Shown: positions 12,015 to 35,273 of the stretch, in pieces | Layout of the letters: every line of letters begins with the position of its first letter | Numbering within the stretch: position 1 is the stretch's first letter | Virus record (IMG/VR): IMGVR_UViG_3300013006_000003 | Span: 1-37,898 of that record | Strand: one strand, 5' to 3' | DNA from: a virus | Length of the DNA stretch: 37,898 nt | Program-made: the position numbers and the translations under genes | The notes under the pieces: generated by a model | Databases searched by the model: none | Told to the model about the DNA's origin: nothing | The model's input: the letters and a program-made list of their open reading frames with translations, nothing else

Positions 12015-12041
12015 AGCTAGCCACCTACTACTAAATCCAGT

Positions 12042-12565: not shown

Positions 12566-12571
12566 TAGTTA

Positions 12572-13306: not shown

Positions 13307-13342
13307 TGATTTAGCAGATGATTGGCTTGTTTTAGTATAGCG

Positions 13343-13798: not shown

Positions 13799-14193
13799 GA
13801 CTCCCTGCCGATACGGTCGGCAGCTATCCGCACTCTGCCTTGAACGTCTTTGGCTATACCTTGAATAAAGCCTCTGTCGGCTTGCTTGCTACTGCCATTA
13901 GCAAGCGATTCCGCATATGGCAGGTTGTTATGCACGCTGTAGATATTGCCGAGGCGTTCTTGGCTGTAACCAATGCGGTCTAATGCTGGTATGCCTGTGT
14001 AGTTGCCCGACGCTTTAATGCCCCCTGGTGCTGAGTTTTCACCTACCTGCCAGCTAGCGCGAAATCTGCCAGTATCAACTGGGCTTGCTTGTTTCAATAA
14101 ACTATCAGTTTCTAATACTGCTGCACGTAATAGCTTCTCCATTTGATTATTGGCGTAATCACCAATCTGGTTTAGCCGGATAGTACCTGCCAT
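13795..14193 (-). CDS. HK97 gp10-like head-tail/neck protein
   Basis: This 132-residue protein contains a helix ending in LLKQASPVDTGRFRASW, the hallmark P-V-D-T-G-x-x-x-x-S-W of HK97 gp10-like tail-completion proteins, and a later NNLPYAESLANGSSKQA segment that corresponds to the family's Y-A-x-x-L-x-x-G-x-S motif. In known phages these proteins are located at the neck and link the connector to the tail terminator. The start overlaps the preceding stop by one base. It lies between the head-closure candidate and the tail terminator, the usual place. Confidence 0.85.
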   Translation of the reverse strand: MAGTIRLNQIGDYANNQMEKLLRAAVLETDSLLKQASPVDTGRFRASWQVGENSAPGGIKASGNYTGIPALDRIGYSQERLGNIYSVHNNLPYAESLANGSSKQADRGFIQGIAKDVQGRVRIAADRIGRES

Positions 14194-14549
14194 CAGACCC
14201 TCAGAATCAGTTCATAGGTTATCGCCGTGTTGTCTTGCTCAGTGGTTACAACGCTGATTATTTGATGCACTACTGATGCAATCAGCACTTTATCCGCTGG
14301 TGTTGGTGCATTTGCAACATCTGCTGCGGCAATCGTTAACCGCTTATCGCCAGCTTGGATTAGATCATTCACCTCGCGCAAATTAACGTCTTCCAGTACA
14401 CCGCGCACTACGGTATCAGCAGCAGTTTCTGCTGCTGTGCCAGTAGCTGGATCGTACGCGCCCATCGTAATACGGCGGATGGTCGCTACGCCGCCAAACT
14501 TAGCCATCAGCTTCGATGCGACCTTACGTAGCGGGGTTGATAGTGCCAT
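14193..14549 (-). CDS. Head closure / head-tail joining protein
   Basis: This 118-residue protein has the layout of small head-closure proteins. An N-terminal helix (LRKVASKLMAKFG) is followed by β-strands with an ATIRRIT segment, an acidic loop and a C-terminal strand (ITYELILRV). It begins at 14549, sharing one base with the end of the upstream gene, and is followed by the gp10-like protein. Lambda gpFII and SPP1 gp16 equivalents occupy this position. No catalytic motif is seen. The assignment rests mostly on order and size. Confidence 0.7.
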   Translation of the reverse strand: MALSTPLRKVASKLMAKFGGVATIRRITMGAYDPATGTAAETAADTVVRGVLEDVNLREVNDLIQAGDKRLTIAAADVANAPTPADKVLIASVVHQIISVVTTEQDNTAITYELILRV

Positions 14550-14797
14550 CAGAGCTTATATGCAACGCAGTGGCCAGCCGACAGGTTAATGCTGGTGAAA
14601 ACACCATAAATCGTTACTCCAGCGGTAGGAGTATGGCCGGCCAATGATGCCCCGTCATAGTTGGTGCTAATGATTTCAGTGATTGCTGCGTTGCCCAAAA
14701 AAGTAATCGCACACCAGCGGCCAGTCACTGTTGTTGCGGCGTCAACAAAAGTTGCGCCTTTGGAATAATCAATGCCAAGAACACTGGAGTCGCTCAT
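14549..14797 (-). CDS. Small virion-type protein, paralogue B
   Basis: This 82-residue protein shares its plan with the preceding 74-residue gene. Both have an N-terminal FxDxxxxxTGR segment, a central strand containing I-x-x-x-x-Y-x-G-x-x-L, and a C-terminal G-V-F-T-S-I-x-L-x-x-G-x-x-x-A-Y-K ending. Ending motifs of this kind occur in small phage proteins encoded near capsid genes. The role is not established; head decoration or fibre attachment is possible. The two genes are separated by only 2 bp, which suggests a tandem duplication. Confidence 0.65.
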   Translation of the reverse strand: MSDSSVLGIDYSKGATFVDAATTVTGRWCAITFLGNAAITEIISTNYDGASLAGHTPTAGVTIYGVFTSINLSAGHCVAYKL

Positions 14798-14799
14798 GG

Positions 14800-15024
14800 C
14801 TAAATCTTGTAAGCGATAACAGTGCCGCTAGTTAATGTGATGCTGGTGAATACACCACACATCTCGCAGCTTGCTTTGATTGGAATGGCTGTAAGCGCGT
14901 TACCGGTATAATCCAGCGCCGTAACGCTTGCAATCACTGAATCCTCTAATGCCACAATCTCGCCAAACCTGCCGGTATGAGCAACAGTATCGTCAATGAA
15001 CTCAGCGCCTGGGTATTCGCTCAT
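14800..15024 (-). CDS. Small virion-type protein, paralogue A
   Basis: This 74-residue β-rich protein has a CEMCGVFTSITLTSGTVIAY ending that closely parallels the next gene (GVFTSINLSAGHCVAYK). Two cysteines (C-x-x-C, residues 53-56 approximately) are present here but not in the paralogue. The start overlaps the stop of the upstream connector gene by 4 bp (ATGA), so the pair is co-translated with head-completion genes. The function is unknown. It is probably structural, since everything around it is. Confidence 0.65.
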   Translation of the reverse strand: MSEYPGAEFIDDTVAHTGRFGEIVALEDSVIASVTALDYTGNALTAIPIKASCEMCGVFTSITLTSGTVIAYKI

Positions 15025-15581
15025 GATCGTTTGATGGAGAAATTGCCTGGTCCGCTTATTCTAAGCCCTGTTAGGTAACGTTCCACCATCGGCGGGATTT
15101 TATCTGCCCCCACGGCGCCGCTAAAATTTGGCGTCACGTCAAGGCTACCGATTTTTACATTCTTGAAATCTTCTAGCCCGCTAAGCCCAATGCCATCAGT
15201 GTTGTTATTTAGGTATGCCGCAAGCAAGACCTGTGCATATTGCACCTGCGGCGGAATTTCGTTGTCGTTAAAATAATCGGTGGTAATGCGAAATGGGAAA
15301 CCGACGGCATAAGTATTGATATAAGTATCGGGCCTTCTCACGCCAGTCCGCGGCCATTGCAGCGACTGCGTATCAGTTGCCCTAGCACCTAGGAAACGTT
15401 CACGATCTAATCGTTGTGTTGCGGTGTAAAGTGCACGATTTTTGGCGTCTGTAGTAGCAGAGCCCCATGCTGTAATATCTGCGTCTTGCACCAACCCGTC
15501 AACTATCAACTGGGCATTCGCCAGCGTTATGTACGAGTTTGCGTCGGCGGCGTTTGGGGTCGCCACTATCACGATTGCCAT
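15021..15581 (-). CDS. Head-tail connector (adaptor), DnaT-like family annotation
   Basis: This 186-residue protein starts with ANSYITLANAQLIVDGL and then has an AxxDAKNRALYTATQRLDRE helix and a LQWPRTGVRRPD segment. The first-strand ANSY-x-T/S-L-A-x-A motif, the helix ending in LDR and the W-P-R-x-G are characteristic of phage head-tail adaptors that databases often label putative DnaT-like ssDNA-binding protein. It probably joins the portal to the closure protein. The start is unusually well supported: AGGAGG at 15588-15593 lies six bases before the ATG, although this places the start inside the preceding small gene. Confidence 0.8.
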   Translation of the reverse strand: MAIVIVATPNAADANSYITLANAQLIVDGLVQDADITAWGSATTDAKNRALYTATQRLDRERFLGARATDTQSLQWPRTGVRRPDTYINTYAVGFPFRITTDYFNDNEIPPQVQYAQVLLAAYLNNNTDGIGLSGLEDFKNVKIGSLDVTPNFSGAVGADKIPPMVERYLTGLRISGPGNFSIKRS

Positions 15582-15687
15582 CAGTAGCCTCCTCTGGTAT
15601 TAGTGTAGGCTCCGCAATAGGAAATGAGGCCACCTCCTGGGAGATAGCCTCACGTTCACGCATTCTGCGGAATGCAAATAAACCCAT
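15499..15687 (-). CDS. Small basic protein after the capsid cluster
   Basis: This 62-residue protein begins MGLFAFRRMREREA and has a basic KRRRRK run near its C terminus. The start (TGATG overlap with the upstream stop) and the F-A-F-R-R-x-R-E-x-E-A opening resemble small uncharacterised proteins that I associate with the region after major capsid genes in other phages. It overlaps the connector gene by 83 bp in another frame, so its last ~27 residues are constrained by two frames. Function unknown. Confidence 0.6.
   Translation of the reverse strand: MGLFAFRRMREREAISQEVASFPIAEPTLIPEEATDGNRDSGDPKRRRRKLVHNAGECPVDS
15588..15593 (-). promoter_or_regulatory. Shine-Dalgarno AGGAGG deciding the connector start
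   Basis: The minus strand reads AGAGGAGG, then CTACTG, then ATG at 15581. Most genes here have weak ribosome sites or overlap-coupled starts, so this strong one both fixes the connector start and implies independent initiation within the overlapping gene at 15499-15687. Confidence 0.75.
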
Positions 15688-16100
15688 CAGGCAGCAGCAG
15701 CAGCAGTAGAACCTAGGCCATACAACGTAATGGCTTCAGAACCAGCAGCTACAGCAGTAACACGGCCAAGGAATACCTTGGAAGCATTCTGCACAACAGT
15801 TGCTACGCCGCTAACTGTTACGTCAGTACCACCAGCAATAGTGATGGTATTAGCGCCAGCCGATGCGTTAATAACAACCACCATAAAAGTGGTGCCAATA
15901 GCGCAGTCACCGCCGATAGCAGCCACAATTGCCGCAGCCGTAGCTGTGGTATATGTAGCAGCAGCAGAAGGAACGCCACGGATAATGACGTTGTAGCTGT
16001 TAGCTGTACTTAGGGTTGCAGTAGCAGTAGGAGCTGCTAAACCCATTTGCCCAGGCAGAAGGCCGCCTGGAATGTCGCCAAGTTCAAAGATACTTGCCAT
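15687..16100 (-). CDS. Putative head decoration protein
   Basis: This 137-residue protein is almost free of charged residues and very rich in Ala, Thr, Gly and Val, ending in a run of five alanines. The N-terminal segment FELGDIPGGLLPGQMG is Pro/Gly-rich, followed by alternating β-type residues. It starts 5 bp after the major capsid stop. A capsid decoration or stabilising protein directly after the coat gene is common (lambda gpD itself precedes it). No family motif is seen, so this is a positional inference. Confidence 0.6.
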   Translation of the reverse strand: MASIFELGDIPGGLLPGQMGLAAPTATATLSTANSYNVIIRGVPSAAATYTTATAAAIVAAIGGDCAIGTTFMVVVINASAGANTITIAGGTDVTVSGVATVVQNASKVFLGRVTAVAAGSEAITLYGLGSTAAAAA

Positions 16101-16105
16101 GACTA

Positions 16106-17125
16106 TTAGTAGTTAGAGGTACAAGTAGCGCGTACAATACCAATATTTTTGGTTTCATACACTTTGGTCCAGTTGCCAATAGTGGCAAGCTGAGCCTGAG
16201 TTGGGTTTACGGTAGTTCCCCACTTAGCACCAATTGGGTGGTAGCAGTAGTGCAAATCAATTGCCATAGCATCACTCTTGGCGAGGATGTCACGGTCAGT
16301 TTCAGTGCGCAATGCCATTTGCTCACCAGAAGCGATAGCGCCTGCGGTGAAGAAATAAACAGGATAGTTGGTGCTAGTTGGTGCTAAATCGTCGGAAACG
16401 ATAACACGCAAGCCCATGAATGTTGGTACTGAATTGTCACCGGCATAAGCAGATGCAATAGAACCAGCAATTGCGTTGATGGTGCTAGCACCAGTCGCAG
16501 CAGTGCTTAGGCGTGCCTCGGTGTTAGTAATGTAATCAATTGCCTTGCGTTCTACTAGGTCGTAGTAAACAGCAGAGTGCATAGCAACAGCAGTTAGCTT
16601 GTCGCCTTGATCACCTAGCAATGCACGGGCTTTAGCTACTTGGCGGGGACCAAGTGCTGTTTGGCCAGTCTTATCAAAAGACAAATCAATAAATGCAGCG
16701 CCGGTGTTGGAGGTCAAGCCGCCAAATACACCTTCAAGGCACTTGATGAGATCTTTTTGACGTTGGTTAGCTACATAGGCGGCAACCTTAGTAGCGATAG
16801 CGGCCATAGGATCAGCGCCAGCAGCAAGAGCGGCAAGATCGCGTGATTCAAATGCACGGCCACGGTGCAAAACAACACCAACTTGCTTGTTGGCAGTGAT
16901 TTTGCCAGGTGTTAATGAAGAACTGTCAGTCAGTACCTCAAAATCACCGCTTAAGTTAGCTGAAAAGAATGGAACGTTGATGAAATCACCGCCTTCGGAA
17001 GCATCCAACTCCGCCATTGGTTGAACTACACCAGACGACAAAAATGCGTCGCGCTGAGTGGTAGCTTCAATCAAATAGGGTGTAAAAATCTCCGGTACGA
17101 TGATGTCAGAGCGAAGTGTCGCCAT
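16106..17125 (-). CDS. Major capsid protein
   Basis: This 339-residue protein begins LRSDIIVPEIFTPYLIEAT and continues with an E-loop-like region (GDFINVPFFSANLSGDFEVL), a VLHRGRAFESRDLAALAAGA helix and a VAAYVANQRQKDLIKCLEGV spine helix. This order (N-arm, V-P-E-x-F, I-N-V-P-F, then the R-x-x-A-F/W-x-x-x-D-L segment) is typical of HK97-fold coat proteins of the gp13-like/P22-like group. The ribosome site GAGG lies five bases before the ATG. A scaffold gene precedes it and a decoration candidate follows. It should be the most abundant virion protein. Confidence 0.9.
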   Translation of the reverse strand: MATLRSDIIVPEIFTPYLIEATTQRDAFLSSGVVQPMAELDASEGGDFINVPFFSANLSGDFEVLTDSSSLTPGKITANKQVGVVLHRGRAFESRDLAALAAGADPMAAIATKVAAYVANQRQKDLIKCLEGVFGGLTSNTGAAFIDLSFDKTGQTALGPRQVAKARALLGDQGDKLTAVAMHSAVYYDLVERKAIDYITNTEARLSTAATGASTINAIAGSIASAYAGDNSVPTFMGLRVIVSDDLAPTSTNYPVYFFTAGAIASGEQMALRTETDRDILAKSDAMAIDLHYCYHPIGAKWGTTVNPTQAQLATIGNWTKVYETKNIGIVRATCTSNY

Positions 17126-17190
17126 GAGATCCTCAAGAATTAGTGGTTTGCAAGTTCGGGCACAACCCTAGCCAGCACAACTGGATGCAA

Positions 17191-17850
17191 TTATGCTAGC
17201 GCCTTTAACCTGTCATACATATCACGGTCTGTCTTAAACAGCCTTGATTGCTCCGTCAGGTTGAATGTTTCAGGTGCAAATGGGTTTTTGATACCTGCTA
17301 ATTCACTGGTGCTACGGCCTGATGGTGCGCCGCTGCCTTGTGGTTTTGGTTGCTTTTGCATCCATGCTGGTAGCGTTTTAGCCCATTCAGCTACTGGTGT
17401 GCGTTGGTAGCCATCTACTACAACAACAGTGCCATCAGGTTCACGTTCAATTTTATCGCTGCTTAACTTAGTTTTAAGCACCATATCTGGATCATGCACT
17501 AGATCTGCTAATGCTGTTACTGCTGGTGTGATGAGTTCAAGTTCACGGCATTTGGCTTCAAGTTCAATAATGCGCTGGTCCTTTTCCGCCGACGCCTCAC
17601 GGTACTGCTGCTCCAATACCTGCCTTGCTTCGGTGTACTTGCCTTGAGATTCAAGGGCAGTTTGCTCGGCTTGGCGCTTGAATTCCAACAGTTCATCTAC
17701 ATTGACACCATCAGGTATGGCCTTAGCTTGTGCTACGGCTTTTTTATAGTCATCTAGCAATTCAGCATTCTTGCGGCGTAAAGCCTCTAGTTCTGCTTGG
17801 ATTGCTTGTGTGTCGGGAGCTGTTGATTGTTCTTCGGTCATTTTGTGCAA
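17191..17850 (-). CDS. Capsid scaffolding protein
   Basis: This 219-residue protein is dominated by charged helices predicted to form coiled coils (about residues 12-110, e.g. QAELEALRRKNAELLDDYKK). A helix-rich C-terminal region follows, including a Pro/Gly-Ser linker (KQPKPQGSGAPSG) and a short basic end (SRLFKTDRDMYDRLKALA). Placed immediately before the coat gene, it fits an assembly scaffold whose C terminus binds coat subunits. No protease domain is present, so removal would rely on exit or on another protease. A 65-bp gap to the coat gene contains only the coat ribosome site. Confidence 0.85.
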   Translation of the reverse strand: MHKMTEEQSTAPDTQAIQAELEALRRKNAELLDDYKKAVAQAKAIPDGVNVDELLEFKRQAEQTALESQGKYTEARQVLEQQYREASAEKDQRIIELEAKCRELELITPAVTALADLVHDPDMVLKTKLSSDKIEREPDGTVVVVDGYQRTPVAEWAKTLPAWMQKQPKPQGSGAPSGRSTSELAGIKNPFAPETFNLTEQSRLFKTDRDMYDRLKALA

Positions 17851-17875
17851 ATCGTTTGCAATCTTATGTTATCAG

Positions 17876-18148
17876 TTACCACTTAACTTTGTCAGCCCAA
17901 TAAGCAGCACTCATTTTTCCTTTAGCGATATTCTCGGCATGGCGAGCCTTGAATGATGCACGCCTAGCTTTGTCTGCTGCTGATTCGCCTTTTGCTGCTG
18001 GTGAGCCCGATACACCTTGCTGGCCAAAACGTATCAACCGAACGGTTTCGCCTTCTTTAGCTAATACCGCATGGGATTTACTCTCATGCTGCGGTGTCCG
18101 CTTGGGTTTGTTATAACCCTCGAATTGCTCACCGCGATAGTTGATCAT
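17876..18148 (-). CDS. Conserved phage hypothetical protein (KARHAxNIAKGKxSAAYWA type)
   Basis: This 90-residue basic protein begins MINYRGEQFEGYNKPKRTPQ and ends with FKARHAENIAKGKMSAAYWA plus a few basic residues. Both ends match a short protein family I recognise from phage and cyanophage genomes, with no known function. The ATG overlaps the previous stop (ATGA). Lys/Arg and Ser richness suggests contact with nucleic acid or capsid interior, but nothing proves it. It lies between the MuF-like gene and the scaffold, so an internal head protein is possible. Confidence 0.75.
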   Translation of the reverse strand: MINYRGEQFEGYNKPKRTPQHESKSHAVLAKEGETVRLIRFGQQGVSGSPAAKGESAADKARRASFKARHAENIAKGKMSAAYWADKVKW

Positions 18149-18375
18149 TTGCGCTTGGGTGCTGCTTTTACCTCAGAACGTGGCTTTAGCACTGGGTTAC
18201 CAGTGGATTCGGATTTAATACGCAGCACTGGATCTTCCTTAGTACCTAGCCGCGTTACCTTGCCGCCGCTAGGGCCAGTGATAGTAGCGCGAGTGCCAGC
18301 AGTGCTAGTAACCACGCCATAAGTGGTCTTACCTTGATACTGCCAAGAGACGCGGGAGCCAACGCCGATAGCCAT
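18145..18375 (-). CDS. DUF2945 / Tudor-like small protein
   Basis: This 76-residue protein reads VGSRVSWQYQGKTTYGVVTS, then ITGPSGGKVTRLGTKEDPVL and LRIKSESTGNPVLKPRSEV. The G-x-x-V-S-W opening, the central strands, E-D-P-x-L/Y-x-I-x-S-x-S-T-G and the final K-x-x-S-x-V match the hypervirulence-associated/DUF2945 small β-barrel family. Family members are widespread and their role is poorly known. In phages they often sit next to portal and head genes, as here. It starts 2 bp after the preceding short gene's stop and overlaps the next gene by 4 bp. Confidence 0.7.
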   Translation of the reverse strand: MAIGVGSRVSWQYQGKTTYGVVTSTAGTRATITGPSGGKVTRLGTKEDPVLRIKSESTGNPVLKPRSEVKAAPKRK

Positions 18376-18376
18376 T

Positions 18377-18514
18377 TTACTTTTTGGGTTTGCGACTTTT
18401 GCCAGCTTTAGCGTAGGCGATCGCTACTGCTTGCTTAGGTGGTTTGCCAGCTTTGATTTCAGCCTTGATGTTCGACTGAATCATGTCCTTGCCTTTACCT
18501 TTCTTTAATGGCAC
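18377..18514 (-). CDS. Very short basic protein, KKGK...GKPPKQAVAIA type
   Basis: A 45-codon minus-strand frame starts at GTG 18514 (20 bp inside the end of the MuF-like gene) and ends at TAA 18379-18377. It reads VPLKKGKGKDMIQSNIKAEI, then KAGKPPKQAVAIAYAKAG and a basic tail. This K-K-G-K...S-x-N-I...G-x-P-x-x-Q-A-V-A-I-A pattern is a recurrent short protein of phages and plasmids with no known function. The ATG at 18484 would give only 35 residues and lose the conserved K-K-G-K start, so GTG is preferred. Confidence 0.75.
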   Translation of the reverse strand: MPLKKGKGKDMIQSNIKAEIKAGKPPKQAVAIAYAKAGKSRKPKK

Positions 18515-19688
18515 CGTAACGCTTGCGGAGGTCATCTAATGATAGCTCCGACCCATCGTCGCGTACAAGCTTTGCCATTGCATCGCGGGCGCCATGTTTT
18601 TCAGCTAATTTATTGAAATAAACTACTTTATCTTTTCCTAATATTTCTTCCTGCACTGAGCGCGGTTGATCCTTAAGCCATTGGCCATAGCTTGTATTAA
18701 CTGGCACTGGACCATCTTTACTGGCGCGTGTTGCAACTGTTGATGGTGGCAAGATATCAGGATCAATGATTGGTACCGTTGTACTGCGACAATTAAAATG
18801 TTGTGGTGGCATCGGCCCTTTGCCATACTCAAACTCACGCCCATCTAATGCGCGGCATATTGCGCTAGTCCTAGTGTCAAGTGTTGCAATGTAACGATAC
18901 TTTTTAGTTATATCTTGGTTCGCTTCATATACCTGCTGGCTGGCAGCATTAGCAACTTGGTTAATGCTTGTGCGTACAAGCGCCATGATCTGGTTATCAG
19001 CTACCGCCGTGAGTTCACCGCCTGCGGCTGCTAACTGACGTGCCGTTTTTGCGATTTCGCCAAATTGCAATTGCCCAATCAATCGCTTTGCAATATCAGG
19101 TGTGGTTTCACCTGTTAGCAAGCCATTACGCACCACCTGCCCAAACCGCTCAGCTTGATCAACTGCAATACCACGGAACGCTTTGCTTACTACCTCACCG
19201 TTAGGCAGCGTAATCGTTGCACCTTGGGCAGCAGTAAGGCTAAACGTTTGTGGTGCACCTTGTACGGCTGCAAATAAATCATCCGATAATGCCACCACAT
19301 TTAGCTGTGTTGGGTCAGTTGTAACTACTGATTGCGCAAATTGCGGGCTTATTTCAACTGTATTAACTGCAGTACGTGCGCCTGCCGGTAATGCCTTTCG
19401 TAGCTCTTCAGTAACGAAATCAGATTGCAATTCTGCTAATCCTTGCAATTCTGTAGATAGTGCAGTAATACTATCGCCCGACCATGTATTAAGGCTGTCT
19501 TTAAGCTGGGCTAATATCGCACGCAACCTTGCTGCTTTTACTGGTGCTGCTAACTCATCAATCGTTCGCAGTTGATTTACAGCATCAATAATAATATCAT
19601 TATAAGTTGTAATTACTTGACGGCCTACACTATTGCTATAACGGTTTAAATCAATTGCGTTACGAAATAGGGCTGCTGGTATTGTCAT
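18495..19688 (-). CDS. Minor head protein, Mu gpF / SPP1 gp7-like
   Basis: This 397-residue protein is helical over residues 1-260 and then carries the MuF core: ALVRTSINQVANAASQQVYE and YRYIATLDTRTSAICRALDG, followed by a PPQHFNCRSTTVPII ending (about residues 235-305). The T-L-D-x-R-T-S-x-x-C ... P-x-H-x-N-C-R pattern is the conserved MuF (PF04233) signature. In relatives these proteins bind the portal inside the head and may influence DNA ejection. It overlaps the portal gene by 29 bp, the normal order. The C-terminal ~90 residues are charged and of unknown role. Confidence 0.88.
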   Translation of the reverse strand: MTIPAALFRNAIDLNRYSNSVGRQVITTYNDIIIDAVNQLRTIDELAAPVKAARLRAILAQLKDSLNTWSGDSITALSTELQGLAELQSDFVTEELRKALPAGARTAVNTVEISPQFAQSVVTTDPTQLNVVALSDDLFAAVQGAPQTFSLTAAQGATITLPNGEVVSKAFRGIAVDQAERFGQVVRNGLLTGETTPDIAKRLIGQLQFGEIAKTARQLAAAGGELTAVADNQIMALVRTSINQVANAASQQVYEANQDITKKYRYIATLDTRTSAICRALDGREFEYGKGPMPPQHFNCRSTTVPIIDPDILPPSTVATRASKDGPVPVNTSYGQWLKDQPRSVQEEILGKDKVVYFNKLAEKHGARDAMAKLVRDDGSELSLDDLRKRYGAIKER

Positions 19689-21045
19689 TCAGCCCTCCGT
19701 TAGCAGTTGCGCTTAGCTCTTCTTCTACATCAAAATCATCGCCTAGCACTTCACCATTAGCAAGCTGTTCTAGTAATGTTTCCTGGGTGATAGTGCCAGC
19801 AGTATAAAGCTGGAGCAATGCTTGAATCTCCTGAGGTTCTAGTCTTGCGCCAATAAAATCACGATTTACCAAGCAACTGCCAGCCGATTCAGTAGTACCG
19901 AGATATTCAGCATGAAAGCGTAAACAGTTATCGATCATATCTTGCATATTCTGCGCAATTACCATCATGGTGCTATCGCCTTGGCTGCGGTCAATACGCT
20001 TTGCTTCTGCTGTTTCCGCGCTGAGTTTTTGCCCTAATACTGCTGATAGACCAAGCTCATTAATCTGCCCTGCAAGCTGCTCTAGCCGTTTGAATTGGTA
20101 CTCAAAACTTGCACCACCTGGTTCTATAAATTCCGCCCTTCCATTCTCGGGAAAGGCTATAGCCTCTCCTGGACCTGCTGATACCTCTTCCGCTGCTGAC
20201 GGGAAACCAAAGAATGCCAACATCGGCACTGCTGATATATGTAGCTGGTTGTCAAGATCTGATTGTATTTGATAAGTTTTAAGGTTTAGTTCTGCAATAT
20301 CTTCTAATGGTGGCCTTGATTCTAAATAACCAACGCGGTTGCTGTATGCAACGCTGAATGGTATCTCGTTAAGGCTTGTATTACCTTCTTCTACAATCTT
20401 AAACTCGCTGTTATCTTGCTTTTGATGTAGCTCGTATGCGCCTGGTGTTAAGACTCGAACCTGCTGCACTGCCTTCTCACCGTAATCACCATCAGGCACA
20501 ATCACTGATTCCAGCAATCGCAACATCGTAAGTTGCTGCTGCCCGTCTTTTGCTTCAGTACGCCAACCTAATATTTGCCGTGGTGTGTAGGTGCACCAAT
20601 ACGGCCTGCCGCCATCTGATGGTGCATCAACTAGTGTTCCAATGTGGCCGTAACGCACCAACTTGCGTGCAGTTTCATAAGTCCAGACGTTAAGATCATT
20701 CCCTTGCAGGTCAACGTCAAATAGTTGTTCACGTATGTTGTCGCTGGTATCATTTAACCTAACGGGCTTACGTGTTAACATTCCCGCTAACATACGCTCT
20801 AAGCGTTGATAGTACGGCGGAACTACGCTACGTGCTAAGCGATTATCGTAAGACTCATCTTGTTCGCGTGGCTCTTGCGGCAGGTAGCGGCGGTGCCTGC
20901 GCCTCATCCCGTAGGTGCCTTGAATGAGGTCCTCAATCAGCATCCAATGTGGTTCTTGCGCATACCATGCAGTATTCGCATCGTGAACGCGAGTGACCTT
21001 ACGGTCAGCAGTAGGCCGGTCGTAGAAAGAAAAACCTGAATACAT
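19660..21045 (-). CDS. Portal protein, DUF4055 type
   Basis: This 461-residue protein resembles DUF4055 portals, with a DESYDNRLARSVVPPYYQRL segment near residue 60, LAGMLTRKPVRLND near 90, a central β-wing region and a C-terminal helical part containing LGLSAVLGQKLSAETAEAKR. The last motif (S-A-E-T-A-E-A-x-R-I-D, followed by S-x-M) is diagnostic for this portal family. It should assemble as a dodecamer at one head vertex, taking DNA from the terminase. It lies between large terminase and MuF-like protein. The ATG at 21045 follows the terminase stop by 15 bp. Confidence 0.87.
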   Translation of the reverse strand: MYSGFSFYDRPTADRKVTRVHDANTAWYAQEPHWMLIEDLIQGTYGMRRRHRRYLPQEPREQDESYDNRLARSVVPPYYQRLERMLAGMLTRKPVRLNDTSDNIREQLFDVDLQGNDLNVWTYETARKLVRYGHIGTLVDAPSDGGRPYWCTYTPRQILGWRTEAKDGQQQLTMLRLLESVIVPDGDYGEKAVQQVRVLTPGAYELHQKQDNSEFKIVEEGNTSLNEIPFSVAYSNRVGYLESRPPLEDIAELNLKTYQIQSDLDNQLHISAVPMLAFFGFPSAAEEVSAGPGEAIAFPENGRAEFIEPGGASFEYQFKRLEQLAGQINELGLSAVLGQKLSAETAEAKRIDRSQGDSTMMVIAQNMQDMIDNCLRFHAEYLGTTESAGSCLVNRDFIGARLEPQEIQALLQLYTAGTITQETLLEQLANGEVLGDDFDVEEELSATANGGLNDNTSSPIS

Positions 21046-21060
21046 GCAACCGGCCTTTGG

Positions 21061-22404
21061 TTAATAGATTCTAATGCCTGTACCGCGGCCAGCCCCAGCG
21101 TGTAGCGGGTTGAACTCACGCCATACTAGATAGCCCAATGCGTCTGTCATGTGGTCGTGCCCGCCCTCTTTATCTGGCGTGCCGTTATCGTTATAGCATT
21201 GTAACTCTAAACATTCAATCATGCGTTTGCAGGTGCTGCTGACTTGCAACCGGTGCTCCCCCTTACCGTTTTCAAGTAATGCCTGCACTGCCGCGACGCG
21301 ATCGCGCACAGGTGGATTGCTTTTAGGCGATTGGTTACTGATGCCATATTGCTCCAATATCTGAATATCCGTTTGCGTTGCATTTGTAGAACGATTGCCG
21401 CCACTAGCGTCTGGGTAGCCATAAAGCCGATGAGTTGGATATCGCCTACGAATCTCGGCACCTAATGCGTCGGTATCATGCGCGCCGCTGATCTCGTCGA
21501 TTATTAATAAACCTTTACCGCTACGAATGCCAATAACCGCCGACATGTTGCCGATGTTAAAGTCAACGCCAATACGCAATGGTTCTTCACTGTAATCCGC
21601 CAATTGCGTTACTACATGTTTAACCCTATCAAACCTGTCGTAAACAGTGCCAGTCGTAAGGTTAATAAACTCGCCATCAAGATATGCACGTAATAAGTTT
21701 GGGTCGTAGTTAGCCTGCAACCGCTCAATAAAATCAGCCGGTAAGTGCGGATTATCAGCAGTGCGCATCTTGATCAGCTTTCGATCAGTACGTGATAATG
21801 CGTCCTCACTGGCAAACGTATTAAACATCCAACGGAATCCCTCTGGAGTGGATGCAGCGCCAAATTGCCTTATGTTGCCAGCACGTAAGCGACCAAGGAT
21901 TTTGGGAAATGCACGACTCGCGATAGATGGCGCAACAGTATCGATCTCATCTGCTAATACCCACGCAAGGTTCAAACCAATAATACGTGTCCAGTTCTCA
22001 AAGCTACGGCATAGGATCTTGGTATCACCTAACGGTAAATGCAACACATATTCAGGTAATGGGCTAGCGCGATAAGAATATGGGATATTGTAGGACTCAA
22101 GAAAAGCATCAAAGTCATTTACAAAAATGTCCCGAATCAGCGGACCAGTGGGCTCTAGCACGCAGCCAATAAAGCCTTGGTTAGCTGCTGCAAGATGTAC
22201 CGCTTTAGCGCATAACGCTCTGGTCTTGCCTGCGCCATAGCCTGCTGATACGCCAAGGATTTGGGTTGTATGGTCATTTACAAAATCAAGCTGGCCTGGA
22301 TGCAAATCAGCTTGGATTTGTCTTAATGTATCAGGTAAATCAAATGTTTCAATAAATGTTTGGTTTAATTCAATTTGTGCTAGCCGTTTAAGAATCTTCG
22401 ACAT
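21061..22404 (-). CDS. terL: Terminase large subunit
   Basis: This 447-residue packaging motor has a Walker A (SAGYGAGKT, about 53-61), a Walker B (WVLADEID, 148-155) and a coupling motif region (FGAASTPEGF). The C-terminal RNase H-like nuclease follows, with Asp281 in RIGVDFNIGN, Asp332 in GYPDASGG and Asp421 in GGHDHMTDALGY. All three acidic nuclease positions are present. The nuclease cuts concatemers and the ATPase pumps DNA through the portal. It overlaps the small subunit by 17 bp. Whether packaging is cos or headful cannot be decided here. Confidence 0.95.
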   Translation of the reverse strand: MSKILKRLAQIELNQTFIETFDLPDTLRQIQADLHPGQLDFVNDHTTQILGVSAGYGAGKTRALCAKAVHLAAANQGFIGCVLEPTGPLIRDIFVNDFDAFLESYNIPYSYRASPLPEYVLHLPLGDTKILCRSFENWTRIIGLNLAWVLADEIDTVAPSIASRAFPKILGRLRAGNIRQFGAASTPEGFRWMFNTFASEDALSRTDRKLIKMRTADNPHLPADFIERLQANYDPNLLRAYLDGEFINLTTGTVYDRFDRVKHVVTQLADYSEEPLRIGVDFNIGNMSAVIGIRSGKGLLIIDEISGAHDTDALGAEIRRRYPTHRLYGYPDASGGNRSTNATQTDIQILEQYGISNQSPKSNPPVRDRVAAVQALLENGKGEHRLQVSSTCKRMIECLELQCYNDNGTPDKEGGHDHMTDALGYLVWREFNPLHAGAGRGTGIRIY

Positions 22405-22867
22405 CGACTAACTGCTCACCTGTTTTTGATTGTATTCGCAATAATAAATTACGTTCCTGTTCTGGTGATAGCTCAGATTCTGCTAATGCCTGCACTGCCA
22501 GTTCAACCCCTTCCTGCCTAGCGCGAACGATTGCAGCATTATCACTGTAATGTTTACGAAATGCAGGCGAATGCGTGAGCATCCACTGTGCATCTTTAGT
22601 GCTGCCTTCATCTGCTGCCTTTGCAATAATATTAGCCAGCCGCATTCCACCTTTAGCGCGACCTTCATCAATAGCTTGCAAAAGCAGAATTTCTAGCTGT
22701 GTGCCTTTATCTGTTTTAGCGTTGGCAATCCATTCATTTAGTGCTCGATATGAGACGCCAACAGCGGCTGAGATGTGCTCTAACGGCCCGCCAAATTCAG
22801 ATAAAATACGCACCTTTTCTATAAGTTCATAATTGAGCTTATAGTGTTTGCGCATTAAATTAGCCAT
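22388..22867 (-). CDS. terS: Terminase small subunit
   Basis: This 159-residue protein has an N-terminal helix-turn-helix (ILSEFGGPLEHISAAVGVSY followed by ALNEWIANAK), a central helical oligomerisation region and an acidic C terminus (EQLVDVEDS), the standard arrangement for DNA-recognising small terminases. Immediate overlap with the large subunit supports the call. It would bind the packaging site, which is often in or near its own gene. Confidence 0.88.
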   Translation of the reverse strand: MANLMRKHYKLNYELIEKVRILSEFGGPLEHISAAVGVSYRALNEWIANAKTDKGTQLEILLLQAIDEGRAKGGMRLANIIAKAADEGSTKDAQWMLTHSPAFRKHYSDNAAIVRARQEGVELAVQALAESELSPEQERNLLLRIQSKTGEQLVDVEDS

Positions 22868-23142: not shown

Positions 23143-23202
23143 TGTGGAGGCGCTGGCAACGGTGTGATGGTAGTTCGCTGTGGTCAATCGGGCAAGGGTT
23201 TG

Positions 23203-28895: not shown

Positions 28896-28923
28896 TTGAC
28901 AGGGGAGGCTTAGGGTGTAGGAT
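28896..28923 (+). promoter_or_regulatory. Sigma-70-type early promoter
   Basis: A perfect TTGACA (28896-28901), a 16-bp spacer and TAGGAT (28918-28923, T-A-x-x-A-T) lie in the 101-bp gap between the nuclease gene and the small early genes. Predicted initiation near 28930 would give a transcript running through the RecE/RecT/SSB/sigma genes. The quality of the -35 fits recognition by the host housekeeping sigma factor. Confidence 0.6.
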
Positions 28924-29152: not shown

Positions 29153-29261
29153 GTTTTTATGCGTTGCGATTGTTGCAGCTACTACTTATTTAGTGGTAAC
29201 TGAGGTTGGCAGCCAGCCTTACCCGTATGCAAATCCTGTTCCTGTTGTTTATCCTTCATGA
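29145..29261 (+). CDS. 38-residue secreted or membrane peptide
   Basis: ATG 29145 lies inside the end of the preceding gene and the frame runs to TGA 29259-29261, overlapping the next ATG (ATGA). The product is MLRFLCVAIVAATTYLVV, a single hydrophobic helix after one arginine, then a Pro/Tyr-rich tail (NPVPVVYPS). Tight packing with both neighbours supports its reality. It could be a membrane peptide acting during early infection. No family is recognised. Confidence 0.55.
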   Translation: MLRFLCVAIVAATTYLVVTEVGSQPYPYANPVPVVYPS

Positions 29262-29452
29262 CTGATTCTGACATTTATTGGACTTTTGTATCTGCTAGTA
29301 AATATGGCGGATCATTTTGGCAACGGTTAGCTGATGCTGGTTTGGCTGCTGACACACAAAACAAGCGCCGCATACTTAATGAGTTCCATGAGCTGATTGA
29401 GCATTACGGCCCATCAAAAGGTTTACATCAACTATTGCGGAATCCTAAATGA
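29258..29452 (+). CDS. Hypothetical early protein
   Basis: This 64-residue protein (MTDSDIYWTFVSASKYGGSF and a helical remainder with RRILNEFHELIEHYG) shows no catalytic motif. The amphipathic helices and the coupled position directly before the RecE-like gene (ATGA overlaps on both sides) suggest a small regulatory or accessory protein of the recombination operon. Confidence 0.6.
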   Translation: MTDSDIYWTFVSASKYGGSFWQRLADAGLAADTQNKRRILNEFHELIEHYGPSKGLHQLLRNPK

Positions 29453-30243
29453 CTGTTATTTCAAACGAGAAGTACCACGCTGATCCAGCTATTAGTGCCA
29501 GCCAGCTAAAGGAAATTGGCCGCAGCCCTTTTCATTATTGGAAACGGTACGTTGACCCTGATAGATCACCATCAGAACCGACTGCTGCGATGCGCTTGGG
29601 CAGCCTTGTGCATTGCGCGGTGCTGGAGCCTAAGGAATTGCTGCAACGGTACGCCGTAGGCCCTGACAGGCGTACTAAGGAGGGTAAGGCAACGGCTGAG
29701 CGGATGCTTGCTGATGGCATCGAGCCAGTTAGCGCTAGTGATTTTGAGCAGGCATTATCAATGGCAGCGGCTGTGCGTAGCCACCCGACAGCAGGTTTAT
29801 TGCTGGCCAATGGCGCCGCAGAAACCTCGCACTGGTGGGATGACATAGCAACTGGGCTGCGGTGTAAATGCCGCCCCGACTGGTTTGATGGTGAACTAAT
29901 TGTTGACCTGAAGACCTGCCAAGATGCCAGTCCAGCATTTGGCAAGGCGGTGGCAAATTTTGGCTACCAAATCCAAGCCGCTCACTACCTGGCGGGCACT
30001 TTGGCCAAACGCTTTATTTTTGTTGCGGTAGAGAAAACCTACCCATTTGGAATTGGCGTTTATGAGCTTGACGCTGAAGCATTAGTTCATGGCAGCATTG
30101 CCCGCCACAATGCGCTGCAACGTATACAGGATTGCCGGGCTATAGGCGAATGGGGCCATGGTTATACCGATGGCATTCAAACGCTACAGCTTCCCGGCTG
30201 GGCGCTAAAAGACAACACTTCCATCACTTCAGAGGATTTCTAA
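29449..30243 (+). CDS. RecE-like 5'-3' exonuclease (PDDEXK)
   Basis: This 264-residue protein shows the exonuclease VIII/DUF3799 core: SQLKEIGRSPFHYWKRYV, MRLGSLVHCAVLEP with His55, CKCRPDWFDGELIVDLKT with Asp144, Asp153 and Lys155 as the metal-binding set, and GYQIQAAHYL with Gln174. It would degrade one strand of duplex DNA to make 3' overhangs for the annealing protein encoded next. Its stop overlaps the RecT-like ATG (TAATG), consistent with the two acting as a pair. Confidence 0.9.
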   Translation: MTVISNEKYHADPAISASQLKEIGRSPFHYWKRYVDPDRSPSEPTAAMRLGSLVHCAVLEPKELLQRYAVGPDRRTKEGKATAERMLADGIEPVSASDFEQALSMAAAVRSHPTAGLLLANGAAETSHWWDDIATGLRCKCRPDWFDGELIVDLKTCQDASPAFGKAVANFGYQIQAAHYLAGTLAKRFIFVAVEKTYPFGIGVYELDAEALVHGSIARHNALQRIQDCRAIGEWGHGYTDGIQTLQLPGWALKDNTSITSEDF

Positions 30244-31001
30244 TGAGCGCCATTACATGGACACCGGAGCAGCAACAGCTAATCAGCTCCACAATTGCTC
30301 CAAATTGCACACCAGACGAGCTGAAATTGTTTGCTTATGCGTGCCAACGCACCGGGCTAGATCCGTTCAGCCGCCAAATCTACGCTATCAAGCGCGGTAG
30401 AATGACGATCCAGGTTGGCATTGACGGCCTGCGCAGCATTGCTGAACGCAGCGGCGAGCTTGATGGGTCGGCTACTTACTGGATAGGTGACACAGAAGGC
30501 AGCCAGTGGAGTGATGTATGGCTTGGCAGCAAACCGCCTGCCGCTGCTAAAACTATTATTTGGCGCAAAGGATGCAGCCATTCGTTTACCGCGACTGCAC
30601 GTTTTCAGGATTACAACGCCGGTCAAGGTTTATGGAGCAAAATGCCAGCCGCGATGATTGCCAAATGCAGTGAGGCACTGGCGTTACGAAAGGCGTTTCC
30701 GGCTTGCGCGGGCCTCTACACAGTGGATGAAATGGAGCAGGAAACCGTCACAGTAACGGCAACACCTGCGCCAGCCCTGGCACCTGCTGCATTTGCCGGT
30801 GATGCCAAGATCTTTGCCGCTGGTAAGGCAGCAATTGCTAAATGCAGCACGTTAGACGAGCTAGAAGTTGTTACCAAACGGCTAGAGGCACGCCAAAACG
30901 ACCTGAGCGCTGAGCAGTATCAGGAGTTATTGCAGATGGCAGTAACTAAAGAAGATGCTATGGAAACCCGGCAAGAGGCTGACCCATTCGCTGATGACTG
31001 A
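30243..31001 (+). CDS. bet: RecT/Bet-family single-strand annealing protein
   Basis: The 252-residue product begins SAITWTPEQQQLISSTIAPN and has the Bet core: LFAYACQRTGLDPFSRQIYA, then MTIQVGIDGLRSIAERSGEL and a late PAAMIAKCSEALALRKAFPA segment. These match lambda Bet-type annealases, which pair complementary single strands and promote phage recombination and concatemer formation. The C-terminal 60 residues are variable, ending in acidic PFADD as seen in proteins that contact SSB. The start at 30243 is chosen over upstream frames because it is coupled to the exonuclease stop. Confidence 0.92.
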   Translation: MSAITWTPEQQQLISSTIAPNCTPDELKLFAYACQRTGLDPFSRQIYAIKRGRMTIQVGIDGLRSIAERSGELDGSATYWIGDTEGSQWSDVWLGSKPPAAAKTIIWRKGCSHSFTATARFQDYNAGQGLWSKMPAAMIAKCSEALALRKAFPACAGLYTVDEMEQETVTVTATPAPALAPAAFAGDAKIFAAGKAAIAKCSTLDELEVVTKRLEARQNDLSAEQYQELLQMAVTKEDAMETRQEADPFADD

Positions 31002-31206
31002 GCCCCACCTGACTACTGACCAGTTAGCTGCTAGGTGGGGGCTGCGGCCCTCCACCTTAAAATCTCAACGTGCGCGTGGGGTTGGCCCACCGTATGAAAC
31101 CGCTGAACGCCTAGCCTCACCGCTTGGTGCTCCACGTGTTCGGTATTCGCTAGCACAAATCCTGGCCTTCGAGGCTGCACACAACATCACCCCATTAGAA
31201 CCATGA
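30994..31206 (+). CDS. Small MerR-type helix-turn-helix protein
   Basis: From ATG 30994 (overlapping the end of the annealase gene) this is 70 residues. LTTDQLAARWGLRPSTLKSQ is a clear helix-turn-helix of the MerR/excisionase (HTH_17) group, followed by GVGPPYETAERLAS, matching the family's recognition-wing G-x-G-P-x-y motif, and a VRYSLAQILAFEA end. It may regulate early transcription or act in DNA bending. No integrase accompanies it, so an excisionase role is unlikely. Confidence 0.75.
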   Translation: MTEPHLTTDQLAARWGLRPSTLKSQRARGVGPPYETAERLASPLGAPRVRYSLAQILAFEAAHNITPLEP

Positions 31207-31553
31207 GTTTATTTGCTACCGGCATTGTTCGTATCATCACGCAACCCACCATCCGCACGTTTGATAATGGCACGCAAGTTGCTAACCTGTTCGGCGGTAT
31301 CGGTGAGGGCAAAGATAAAAATGGAGAATACATTAACAATGGTATCGACTGCGAAATATGGGGCAAATCGGCTGAATTAATATGCGATAAATGCAAAAAG
31401 GGTGACAGCATTCAAGTTACTGGCACCATACGGCGTCAGGAATGGGCAGATAAGCAAACAGGTGAAAAGCGTAGTAAACATATAATAAGTGTCAGCAGGT
31501 TTGAATTTTTACCAAGGGCTGCTAATAATACAAGCGAACTCGACGCTTTTTAA
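31203..31553 (+). CDS. Single-stranded DNA-binding protein
   Basis: This 116-residue protein is an OB-fold type: LFATGIVRIITQPTIRTFDN, GIDCEIWGKSAELICDKC, and KGDSIQVTGTIRRQEWADKQ, ending with a short acidic/phenylalanine tail (LDAF). The usual SSB sequence L-x-G-x-I/V-x-x-x-P and G-D-x-I-x-V-x-G-x-I-R-x-x-x-W are all present. It would protect single strands made by the exonuclease and the primase-helicase. It overlaps the HTH gene by 4 bp and lies 3 bp before the sigma factor. Confidence 0.88.
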   Translation: MSLFATGIVRIITQPTIRTFDNGTQVANLFGGIGEGKDKNGEYINNGIDCEIWGKSAELICDKCKKGDSIQVTGTIRRQEWADKQTGEKRSKHIISVSRFEFLPRAANNTSELDAF

Positions 31554-31556: not shown

Positions 31557-32444
31557 ATGACTGCTGATGCAATGCGCGATTACCTAGAGGCCATCTCTAG
31601 GTATCCGTTGCTCACGACACAGCAGGAAATACAGTTGGCACGTAAAATCGCGCAGTACATGGAACTGCGCGATAACACTAGCCCAACACTTTCTGAGCAA
31701 CGGCTGATAAAAGCTGGCCTTAAGGCACGGGCTACCATGGTAAACTGCAATTTACGTTTGGTTGTACATATTGCCAAGCGTTATACAGGCAGAATTAAAT
31801 CAATGGATATGTTGGATTTATGCCAGGAGGGTAATATTGGCCTTCAACGTGCAGCAGAAAAATTTGACGCATCACGTGGATATAAGTTTTCGACCTATGC
31901 GTACTGGTGGATACGTCAATCATTAAAACGTGCTATTGATAGCAAGGAGCGCATGATAAAAATACCGATTCATATGATAGACCGTACATTTAAGGCATTA
32001 CAGATTGAAACAGAATACATGAAAGAACATGGCCGCAAGCCAAGTAAAACAGAATTAGCTCAAGTTATGGGTTTAACGATAGAGCAATTACTAGCATTAG
32101 TCGATTGCAATAGCGTTCATATTAGTTTAGACGAACTGATAACAGATGATGGCAACTCATTGCTTGATTTAATTGCTAGCCCTGAGGTGGGTATTGATTT
32201 TGATTTGGACCGTAGTAAGGAACACGTGCAGCTTGCACTGTCTTATTTAACTGATATGGAGCAAGATATGATAAATAAACGTTACCATGAAGATTTAACT
32301 TTAACAGCTATTGCAAAGGAGCATAATGTATGCCGCGAGCGTATAAGGCAACGCATGGCACGAACGCATCGTAGATTAAATAGATTAATGTCTAAATCAC
32401 ACGTCTCCACCACGGGCGCTTTGATTGTTGAAGATATAAAGTAG
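31557..32444 (+). CDS. Sigma-70 family RNA polymerase sigma factor (group 1/2-like)
   Basis: This 295-residue protein has region 1.2 (MRDYLEAISRYPLLTTQQEI, residues 6-25), region 2 (LRLVVHIAKRYTGRIKSMDM ... LCQEGNIGLQRAAEKFDASR ... KFSTYAYWWIRQSLKRAID, 66-128), region 3 (140-220) and region 4 with its helix-turn-helix (LTLTAIAKEHNVCRERIRQR, 247-266). These are host-type primary or group-2 sigma features, strongest in region 2, which closely follows cyanobacterial sigma factors; T4 gp55 is far more reduced. Region 4 is diverged, which may give a different -35 preference. It lacks the acidic region 1.1. As the last early gene it may redirect host polymerase to late promoters. Confidence 0.92.
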   Translation: MTADAMRDYLEAISRYPLLTTQQEIQLARKIAQYMELRDNTSPTLSEQRLIKAGLKARATMVNCNLRLVVHIAKRYTGRIKSMDMLDLCQEGNIGLQRAAEKFDASRGYKFSTYAYWWIRQSLKRAIDSKERMIKIPIHMIDRTFKALQIETEYMKEHGRKPSKTELAQVMGLTIEQLLALVDCNSVHISLDELITDDGNSLLDLIASPEVGIDFDLDRSKEHVQLALSYLTDMEQDMINKRYHEDLTLTAIAKEHNVCRERIRQRMARTHRRLNRLMSKSHVSTTGALIVEDIK

Positions 32445-33117: not shown

Positions 33118-33280
33118 AAGGCTCCGGCATTTCGAATGGAAGTATTTCGTAATCTAATAAATGAGCGTTTGACTGTGCGATTTCCTCTATCCTAGCGGCG
33201 ATGCCGATTGCTACATCATCTGATGAGTACTCGCTATCCACTACCATCATGGCGCTTATCTCTACTAGGTAGCGGTTCAT
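33071..33280 (-). CDS. Hypothetical small acidic protein
   Basis: This 69-residue protein (MNRYLVEISAMMVVDSEYSS) has a β-strand then a helix (VAIGIAARIEEIAQSNAHLL) and a Pro/Glu-rich tail. Its ATG overlaps the end of the phosphoesterase gene. No family is recognised. It resembles the size class of small regulatory proteins found between phage phosphoesterase and nuclease genes. Confidence 0.55.
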   Translation of the reverse strand: MNRYLVEISAMMVVDSEYSSDDVAIGIAARIEEIAQSNAHLLDYEILPFEMPEPYEPPHQRRESGAGIA

Positions 33281-34137
33281 GTTGCAAACTCACAAGATAT
33301 AGCTACTCCACCTTTATCCCTTGGCCGTAACTTTAGCCAAAGTCCGCCCAGCGACTTCGGCATAGCAATCTTTTCGACTGCGAATCCTCCAAACTTGCCA
33401 AATTCTTCCTTGTAAGTTCCACTTTGCAAGTGTAATCTGTCGGTTATTTCTACAGTACCAACAGCATTAGGCATATAGCAAGTATGCGTTACAACTGTTC
33501 TTTCATGGTTGTGGCCATTAAGAACAATGTTTGCTGTTGGGAATATATTAAAGTACCGCGACCCACCAAGGGTGCCTTTGGTTACTACTCCACCCCAAAC
33601 ACCATGGTGAAAAGCCAAGGTAGTCATGCGTACTTTACCTTGTGAGCCGTCTGGATTTTGCTGATAGAATTTGATAAAAATAAAACCTTGATAACTCATA
33701 TGCTCTACTTTAGACCCTTTCTCGCGCATTAAACGGGTTACATTGCGTAAGGGGTCTACCTCATTATGTTTCATAATGGCAGTTTCGTGGTTGCCATCAC
33801 TCATCATGTAGATGTTATCTCCCCACCTGCTAAGAAAATTAGCACCTTCTTCAAATACAGTATCGAAATAAGCACCTTTTAAATGGCCAATACGAATACT
33901 TCCCTTGTCCGCTCTACGATCCTTCGAGCCCTGCATTAAACAAAAAACGTCACCAAAGAAAAGTGATGGTGCATTTTTAGCCTTAGCCTCATCCAAATGC
34001 CGAGCAAATAATTTTCGGTCACACTTGGGATTATCCAAGTGAATATCGGAAGCTAGAAAGAACTCAAACGTTTCCCCGCATTTATATGGGATGCGGAACT
34101 CTAAGACTTCAGGGCTAAGGCGTTTGGTTTCAATCAT
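33277..34137 (-). CDS. Calcineurin-like metallophosphoesterase
   Basis: The 286-residue product has the five-part metallophosphoesterase signature: FFLASDIHLD (Asp31/His33), LFFGDVFCL (Asp63), MMSDGNHETAIM, LAFHHGVWGG and LNGHNHERTVV, i.e. D-x-H, G-D, G-N-H-E, H-H-G and G-H-N-H. These coordinate two metals and hydrolyse phosphoesters; the substrate (DNA ends, nucleotides or host signalling molecules) is not readable. ATG 34137 is preferred because it overlaps the endolysin stop (ATGA); the ATG at 34158 would overlap further. Its presence in the lysis cassette is unusual. Confidence 0.88.
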   Translation of the reverse strand: MIETKRLSPEVLEFRIPYKCGETFEFFLASDIHLDNPKCDRKLFARHLDEAKAKNAPSLFFGDVFCLMQGSKDRRADKGSIRIGHLKGAYFDTVFEEGANFLSRWGDNIYMMSDGNHETAIMKHNEVDPLRNVTRLMREKGSKVEHMSYQGFIFIKFYQQNPDGSQGKVRMTTLAFHHGVWGGVVTKGTLGGSRYFNIFPTANIVLNGHNHERTVVTHTCYMPNAVGTVEITDRLHLQSGTYKEEFGKFGGFAVEKIAMPKSLGGLWLKLRPRDKGGVAISCEFAT

Positions 34138-35273
34138 GGCTTCACCAACAGCGCCCAACCAGTACTAACGCCATCTGGCATCCAACGGCGATTGAAGCGT
34201 TCTCGGCTGTATTTAATACCAGCGCCACCGGTATTTTTGACATAGCCACCATTAACGAGATCAGCCTCACCGTTTGGATCGTTCAGAATCCAATGCTCAG
34301 CAGTAAACCCAATGACGACGCTCCAATGGCCGCCGCCACTTGGTGACTGCGCAGGCCCTTTGTGCAGCCAACCCACGGCCACGGGCCTCCCAGCACGTAA
34401 CTCAAGCTCGAGCAAACCTTCGGCGCAGTTGGTCGCAAACCGGGCTTGTAAACCTAAAGAACGCAGTGTTGCAAGTTGGCTCTGGCTATCGGTCGTATCG
34501 CCAAACTTGGCACGGATGGCATTATATTCATCATCGCTCTTCACTTTGCCGTAAAACTTAGCAATCATCGCGCAACTACTGGAGAAGCATTCGCGGTAAC
34601 CGGTGGGGCCGTTGTCTAGTTGGTATTCATACGGCACCTTGAGTAACACTGATGTTGCCTTTTGGCTGATGCCCCAGAGTTTTGCCTCGGCTTCACGTCT
34701 ACGGCGGAGGCCAGGTTCTGCTGGTGTACCAGCATTTACGTATAGCATCAATGCCGCTGGTACGGCGTCATAGTTTGCCGCATGTAGCGCCTTCGATATT
34801 GTTTTAAAGCCTTCGCTGCCGTAGAAATGCCAACCCACGTTATAGGCAAACGAAATCAACGCATTTTGCCTATGCGCTGATAATGTTTTCCAGCCAGGTA
34901 TTGTTTTTGCTAACGCCGGTACAACCTGAGTTTCTAGCATGTTATCCAGCAATCCATCAGCAGCATCGCGTGTGATGGTATCGCCGATTTTTACTGCTGC
35001 GCCATCAGGCCATCTAGTGGTGCCCCAGCCGATGGTTGGCACACCGGCAGGACAAATGTATGCTACATCACTGAAACCTTCAAACTCGCGGATTAAATTA
35101 GCGGCCTGCTGCCATGCCAATGCTGCCTTGGGTTTTGGGTCAGCCCTGAATTTGCTTAGAAATTCCTGCTGCTCATCTGGCGCTAGTAGCTCCCATGCCC
35201 AGTTCCATGCTGCCTGCTGGTGAGGCAATGGCGCGGGTCTGCTTGTGGCTTTTACGGCGGCGAGAAAATTCAT
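34134..35273 (-). CDS. Bifunctional endolysin: GH24 lysozyme plus C39-like peptidase
   Basis: The 379-residue protein has a short N-terminal helical part, a GH24 lysozyme domain (about 50-205) with EFEGFSDVAYICPAGVPTIG, catalytic Glu65, Cys74 at the T4 Asp20 position and Thr80, plus the NALISFAYNVG helix. A C-terminal C39-type papain-like domain (210-379) follows, with Cys229 in ECFSSSCAMI, His316 in GGGHWSVVIG and Asp332 in LNDPNGEADL. One domain cuts glycan strands, the other probably peptide bonds of peptidoglycan, so both target the wall at lysis. The ATG overlaps the upstream stop. No signal peptide is seen, so a holin should release it. Confidence 0.9.
   Translation of the reverse strand: MNFLAAVKATSRPAPLPHQQAAWNWAWELLAPDEQQEFLSKFRADPKPKAALAWQQAANLIREFEGFSDVAYICPAGVPTIGWGTTRWPDGAAVKIGDTITRDAADGLLDNMLETQVVPALAKTIPGWKTLSAHRQNALISFAYNVGWHFYGSEGFKTISKALHAANYDAVPAALMLYVNAGTPAEPGLRRRREAEAKLWGISQKATSVLLKVPYEYQLDNGPTGYRECFSSSCAMIAKFYGKVKSDDEYNAIRAKFGDTTDSQSQLATLRSLGLQARFATNCAEGLLELELRAGRPVAVGWLHKGPAQSPSGGGHWSVVIGFTAEHWILNDPNGEADLVNGGYVKNTGGAGIKYSRERFNRRWMPDGVSTGWALLVKP

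Follow-up and report, generated by a model that had tools for sequence, protein, structure and literature searches.

The locus described here raises the question of what a sigma-70 factor does in a small siphovirus whose genome is 37,898 bases long, and where that factor came from. The window analysed is the whole virus record, which has a 123-bp direct terminal repeat. A preliminary description had proposed a host-type sigma factor that either steers the host polymerase to late promoters or mimics a host stress sigma, and we consider here the gene, its genomic setting, its likely targets and its ancestry.

The sigma gene and its product

A single open frame running from ATG to TAG encodes the protein (Table 1). 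Pfam matches to region 1.2 (residues 4-36, 1.1e-9), region 2 (61-132, 6.9e-21), region 3 (149-208, 7.3e-7) and region 4 (227-274, 7.6e-10) all exceed their curated cut-offs and follow one another in that order, which is the architecture of sigma-70 groups 1 and 2; region 1.1 is absent. The top NCBIfam model is TIGR02997, the cyanobacterial RpoD/SigA family, with a score of 238 bits that falls short of the 384.5 bits at which membership is assigned. Primary sigma factors in the PDB match residues 2-276 with E of about 1e-50 (phmmer against solved structures), and an AlphaFold2 model built with 29 viral sequences (mean pLDDT 77, pTM 0.47, poor in parts of 188-216 and at 282-295) resembles sigma subunits from initiation complexes along almost its entire length in Foldseek. 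The high rmsd of these structural matches probably reflects uncertain relative placement of the domains in the model. The gene is confirmed as a real, intact sigma-70 factor, with the single frame and the regions 1.2 to 4 that had been described.

Conservation is uneven along the protein. Region 2 is the best-conserved part, being about 61% identical to cyanobacterial sigmas, and its earlier characterisation as primary or group-2-like stands. Region 3 (about 30% identical) and region 4 (34-39%) are diverged, as had been noted for region 4, and yet the helix of region 4 that reads the -35 element is intact. The best cellular matches are all cyanobacterial and 35-42% identical, except for one Lachnospiraceae locus, and a scan for exact peptides of the window sigma across about 85,000 bacterial and archaeal genomes returned no relative.

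Table 1. Positions in the window of the sigma gene, its functional codons and the associated features.
Feature	Position	Strand	Basis or remark
Sigma-70 family factor, 295 aa	31557..32444	+	Pfam, NCBIfam and PDB matches, AlphaFold2/Foldseek
WIRQSLKR codons, residues 118-125 (region 2.4 face reading -10)	31908..31931	+	
Lysine 124 codon (replaces sigma-70 T440)	31926-31928	+	Alignment and PMC2613000
RERIRQ codons, residues 260-265 (region 4.2 reading helix for -35)	32334..32351	+	Conserved
Sigma-A-like promoter TTGACA-N16-TAGGAT, preceding the sigma-containing operon	28896..28923	+	Predicted by match to the consensus
Recombination operon: e29258, exonuclease VIII, RecT-like annealing protein, e30955, ssb	29258..31553	+	Next to sigma in relatives too
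Convergent block: endolysin and a gene resembling DNA-repair exonucleases (weak PHROG match)	33277..35273	-	
Terminase, portal, head and tail genes	2473..22867	-	Presumed late targets

Promoter-contact residues and exchange of region 4

In the numbering of E. coli sigma-70, the window sigma retains the equivalents of the core-binding residues D403, Q406 and E407, of the melting residues Y430, W433 and W434 together with Q437, and of R584, E585, R588 and Q589, which read the -35 element; N383, Y425, F427, T429, R436, R441, H455 and R586 are also kept. At the core-binding, -10 melting and -35 positions the protein is thus like a group 1 or 2 factor, with the exception of T440, which is replaced by lysine. 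Further departures are a change of R451 to lysine and differences at the E591 and K593 positions of region 4. Each of the 12 sigmas of the window's clade with a readable site (the window included) has the lysine at the T440 position, and it is seen in none of 79 other viral and 107 cellular sigmas, which mostly have threonine there. In sigma-70, T440 and Q437 are turned toward the major groove at promoter position -12, and the substitutions T440I and Q437H suppress a T:A to C:G change at that position (PMC2613000). We infer a changed -12 preference for the window's clade; our literature search found no assay of lysine at the T440 position.

Comparison of the window sigma with nine relatives gives dN/dS values of 0.07-0.17, which indicate purifying selection on the protein. 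Close relatives have exchanged region 4. At the DNA level, the sigma gene of locus L008 is 97% identical to that of the window over regions 1-3 and 80% identical in region 4, where it is instead 91% identical to L009; L009 is itself 89% identical to the window outside region 4. In L008, L009 and a third locus, L010, the gene is altered from about codon 215 to its end, with a mosaic region 4 and a shortened C-terminus from which the last 15 residues are missing. These identities are most simply explained by recombination with a breakpoint near codon 215-240. The mosaic may reflect selection for new region 4 modules, or just a tract reaching in from variable downstream DNA.

Genome organisation and conserved position

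The genes on the plus strand are e26167, a DNA methyltransferase, a helicase, exonuclease VIII, a RecT-like protein, ssb and sigma, with the block order exonuclease VIII, recT, e30955, ssb, sigma; sigma starts 3 nt after ssb and lies tail-to-tail with the lysis genes. The claim that sigma is last in the early operon holds insofar as it ends the recombination block, but a 90-residue open reading frame on the same strand (32664-32936), partly opposite an HNH gene, follows it, and the operon is presumed to be early from its gene content. This small frame matches PHROG 36325 (function unknown) and recurs in several relatives. The view that the genome keeps only essential genes was too strong, as a DNA methyltransferase and an HNH endonuclease are also present. 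No tRNA gene was found in the window.

The late genes occupy the minus strand. Terminase, portal, head and tail genes extend from 22.9 to 2.5 kb; beyond them a long, repetitive tail-fibre frame spans the record ends (2469 to 1, then 37898 to 37680), and the late genes continue with the endolysin and others as far as 33.3 kb. The plus-strand frames opposite the tail-fibre frame, at 143-2377, are probably spurious. Directly downstream of the primase gene, at 23188-23470, twelve copies of CGTAAG/CTTACG surround a stretch rich in A/T; the genome as a whole has 31 copies against 14.3 expected, and none of 100 shuffles had as many. By its sequence this cluster looks like an iteron-type replication origin, and some relatives seem, by eye, to have other repeat words at the corresponding place: GTTACG (G010), TTAGGT (G020) and GGACGCAA (G007 and G012).

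The window's proteins were searched against 85 viral loci that encode relatives of the window sigma; these loci were picked as best matches, and the counts that follow describe this lineage rather than all cyanophages. Upstream sequence of 3.5 kb or more is available for 56 of them, and in 49 of these sigma is preceded by recombination-operon genes in the same orientation. Downstream sequence of that length is available for 66, of which 65 have convergent endolysin, holin-like, HNH or exonuclease-like genes. The window sigma has both neighbours, following its recombination operon and converging with its lysis block.

The terminase large subunit (TerL) shares 77% identity with its counterparts in S-H1 and KBS-S-2A, which infect Synechococcus WH7803, and 70% with those in the Prochlorococcus phages MED4-117, MED4-184 and P-HS2. 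Because the window TerL is this close to picocyanobacterial phages, a picocyanobacterial host is likely, as judged from these relatives. Among 386 genomes of the phylum to which a Cyanobium genome belongs, the best TerL matches reach about 34% identity or less, so these genomes contain no close prophage.

Promoters and a model for sigma action

The sigma-A-like promoter upstream of the operon has a counterpart in L008, which keeps the -35 hexamer, the spacer, the flanking bases and most of the -10 (TAGGGT) despite having a different upstream gene. This preservation suggests that host SigA starts transcription of the operon that ends in sigma. The late region yielded no comparable motif. Sigma-70-like sites between 22 and 37.9 kb number 24, as against 23.1 in shuffled sequences, 7- to 9-mers common to late gaps are not above shuffles (with low power, there being only about 13 such gaps), and alignments upstream of late genes, including terS and terL, gave no convincing promoter. 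An element of 22 bases ahead of terS (near 22891-22912) shows conservation across 21 viral contigs; it was rejected as a promoter, near copies in L257 and L265 appearing by eye to lie inside a coding frame.

We consider it probable that the protein is a functional phage sigma that redirects the host RNA polymerase to phage promoters, likeliest those of the structural and lysis genes. The factor would be made together with the recombination operon from the host SigA-type promoter, early in infection, and would then take the place of SigA on the host core enzyme. Redirected transcription would start at promoters whose -35 is near-canonical and whose -10 may be altered at -12, and the most likely targets would be the structural and lysis genes of the opposite strand, after the early phase. 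The steering to late promoters that was first suggested is, by this reading of the sequence, plausible. The intact regions, the retention of the contact residues, the low dN/dS, the fixed position, the near-consensus operon promoter and the reported effect of the S-CBS3 RpsD4 protein (see below) all argue for such a mechanism. Against it stand the lack of a late motif and the phages S-H1, MED4-117 and MED4-184, in whose records as deposited no frame matches the sigma profile even at E values up to 10 and no sigma is annotated. These three share 14-21 genes with the window, including terminase, portal and capsid, and since they keep homologous structural genes without a detectable sigma, a late module of this type does not always need one. 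Either they use another regulator, or their late module runs on the host sigma.

A more specific version of the redirection mechanism, which we put forward tentatively and think rather doubtful, is that the lysine at the T440 position resets recognition at -12, such that phage promoters poorly read by SigA would be used and host promoters ignored, with region 4 being swapped as a module among near relatives and thereby changing -35 or activator preference. If this were true, a phage transcription switch would have been altered through a single residue.

Origin of the lineage and alternative roles

A maximum-likelihood tree was built from 71 sigmas, comprising viral representatives, the best cyanobacterial matches and the TIGR02997 paralogues of five cyanobacterial genomes, with host SigA recognised through a sequence signature. 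The window sigma falls in a virus-only clade of 36 rows, together with those of KBS-S-2A and S-CBS3 (support 97/91), and host SigA, all sampled host group-2 clades, E. coli RpoD and RpoS, and the RpoD of Microcystis phage MaAM05 lie on the opposite side of the tree. A first quick tree with all 87 rows gave the same result except for the long-branch rows. AU tests on groups named after inspection of the tree reject joining the window's clade to SigA plus MaAM05 (p about 2e-64) and to the nearest Synechococcus/Prochlorococcus group-2 clade (p 0.0008). The sampling of cyanobacteria was not exhaustive, and an unsampled host sister of the virus-only clade is possible. On these sequences the window sigma belongs to an old branch confined to viruses and is not a recent theft from its host. 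The description of the factor as host-type therefore applies to its architecture and contact residues, which are primary or group-2-like, whereas direct host-type descent finds no support, and the tree does not show descent from any named host factor, SigA to SigE. Placement with ECF or T4-type factors was likewise not seen, as the protein has the full group 1/2 architecture and groups with group 1/2 proteins in a tree that was built without ECF or T4 gp55 rows.

One alternative role, which we judge unlikely, is that the sigma acts mainly on host genes, mimicking a host group-2 factor and shifting metabolism for the benefit of the phage. Region 2 is host-like and region 4 has host-like -35 reading residues, and a review reports that growth and acetyl-CoA were both raised when the S-CBS2 RpoD and S-CBS3 RpsD4 proteins were expressed in S. 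elongatus PCC 7942 (PMC10452541, after Sawa et al. 2019). However, heterologous over-expression does not show a role in infection, the protein lies outside every sampled host group-2 clade with the nearest of these rejected, the shared lysine at the T440 position speaks against host -10 elements as targets, and the constant place of the gene, next to recombination and lysis genes of the phage, hints at a part in the phage's own programme. No feature of the sequence speaks for the mimicry of a host stress sigma that the preliminary description had also entertained.

It is very improbable that a host SigA or group-2 gene was captured recently and diverged quickly, for although the cellular matches are almost all cyanobacterial and the best curated model is a cyanobacterial RpoD family, the virus-only clade and the AU rejections argue otherwise, and the MaAM05 sigma, by contrast, does nest with SigA. 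Equally hard to credit is an anti-host factor that competes with SigA for core and stops host transcription without productive initiation, since competition alone would not require the -10 melting and -35 reading residues that are under purifying selection, even if the variation and exchange of region 4 and the C-terminal tail might point to a relaxed use of the -35.

Comparison with known phage sigma factors

The window sigma is not new in kind, as annotated sigma factors are present in KBS-S-2A, S-CBS1, S-CBS3 and P-SS2. Putative sigmas were counted in 65 of 153 cyanophage genomes in a review (PMC10452541); P-SS2 encodes one group 2 and one group 3 sigma (PMC2784084), KBS2A an RpoD (PMC3751600), and S-LBS1, S-CBS1 and S-CBS3 divergent rpoD genes that are under 50% identical (PMC6157547). 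Although such genes have been annotated since 2009, we found no study in the literature that maps the roles of cyanosiphovirus sigmas during infection. Two small details are new here: lysine replaces T440 throughout the window's clade, and near relatives have exchanged region 4.

The sigma of KBS-S-2A (YP_007674984.1), a siphovirus of Synechococcus WH7803, belongs to the same virus-only clade and is likewise convergent with the lysis side, but it has threonine at the T440 position, and an HNH gene and others intervene between ssb and sigma. It is 41% identical to the window sigma over 98% of the query, and the two have thus been long separated. The RpsD4 proteins of S-CBS3 and S-CBS1, small Synechococcus siphoviruses, are annotated as group 2 and encoded near recombination genes, and that of S-CBS3 falls in the window's virus-only clade; they differ in being 39-42% identical to the window sigma, in accompanying a different structural module, and in having serine (S-CBS3) or cysteine (S-CBS1) at the T440 position. 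The group 2 sigma of P-SS2 (ORF 113, PMC2784084) adjoins ssb, as the window sigma does, but is encoded in a 107.5-kb genome and is so divergent that it failed the coverage filter and sits on a branch too long to place.

The MaAM05 RpoD matches the window sigma over residues 4-277 but, in nesting with host SigA, represents a real host-type capture. A Klebsiella phage sigma was dismissed as a relative; in the one record examined (L208, MK422453.1), positions 1882-3723 are the host rpoD between dnaG and mug, which is chromosome at a prophage edge. Late sigmas of the T4 gp55 type are also phage-encoded and redirect the host polymerase. The window sigma is set apart from them by its architecture: it matches full group 1/2 models, includes regions 1.2 and 3, and conserves the -35 helix.

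The sigma lineage described here is old and confined to viruses, occupies almost always the same genomic position and is maintained by selection, and the residue at the T440 position offers a testable site. KBS-S-2A, which has a sigma, and S-H1, which is without one, share the host strain Synechococcus WH7803 and provide a natural comparison.
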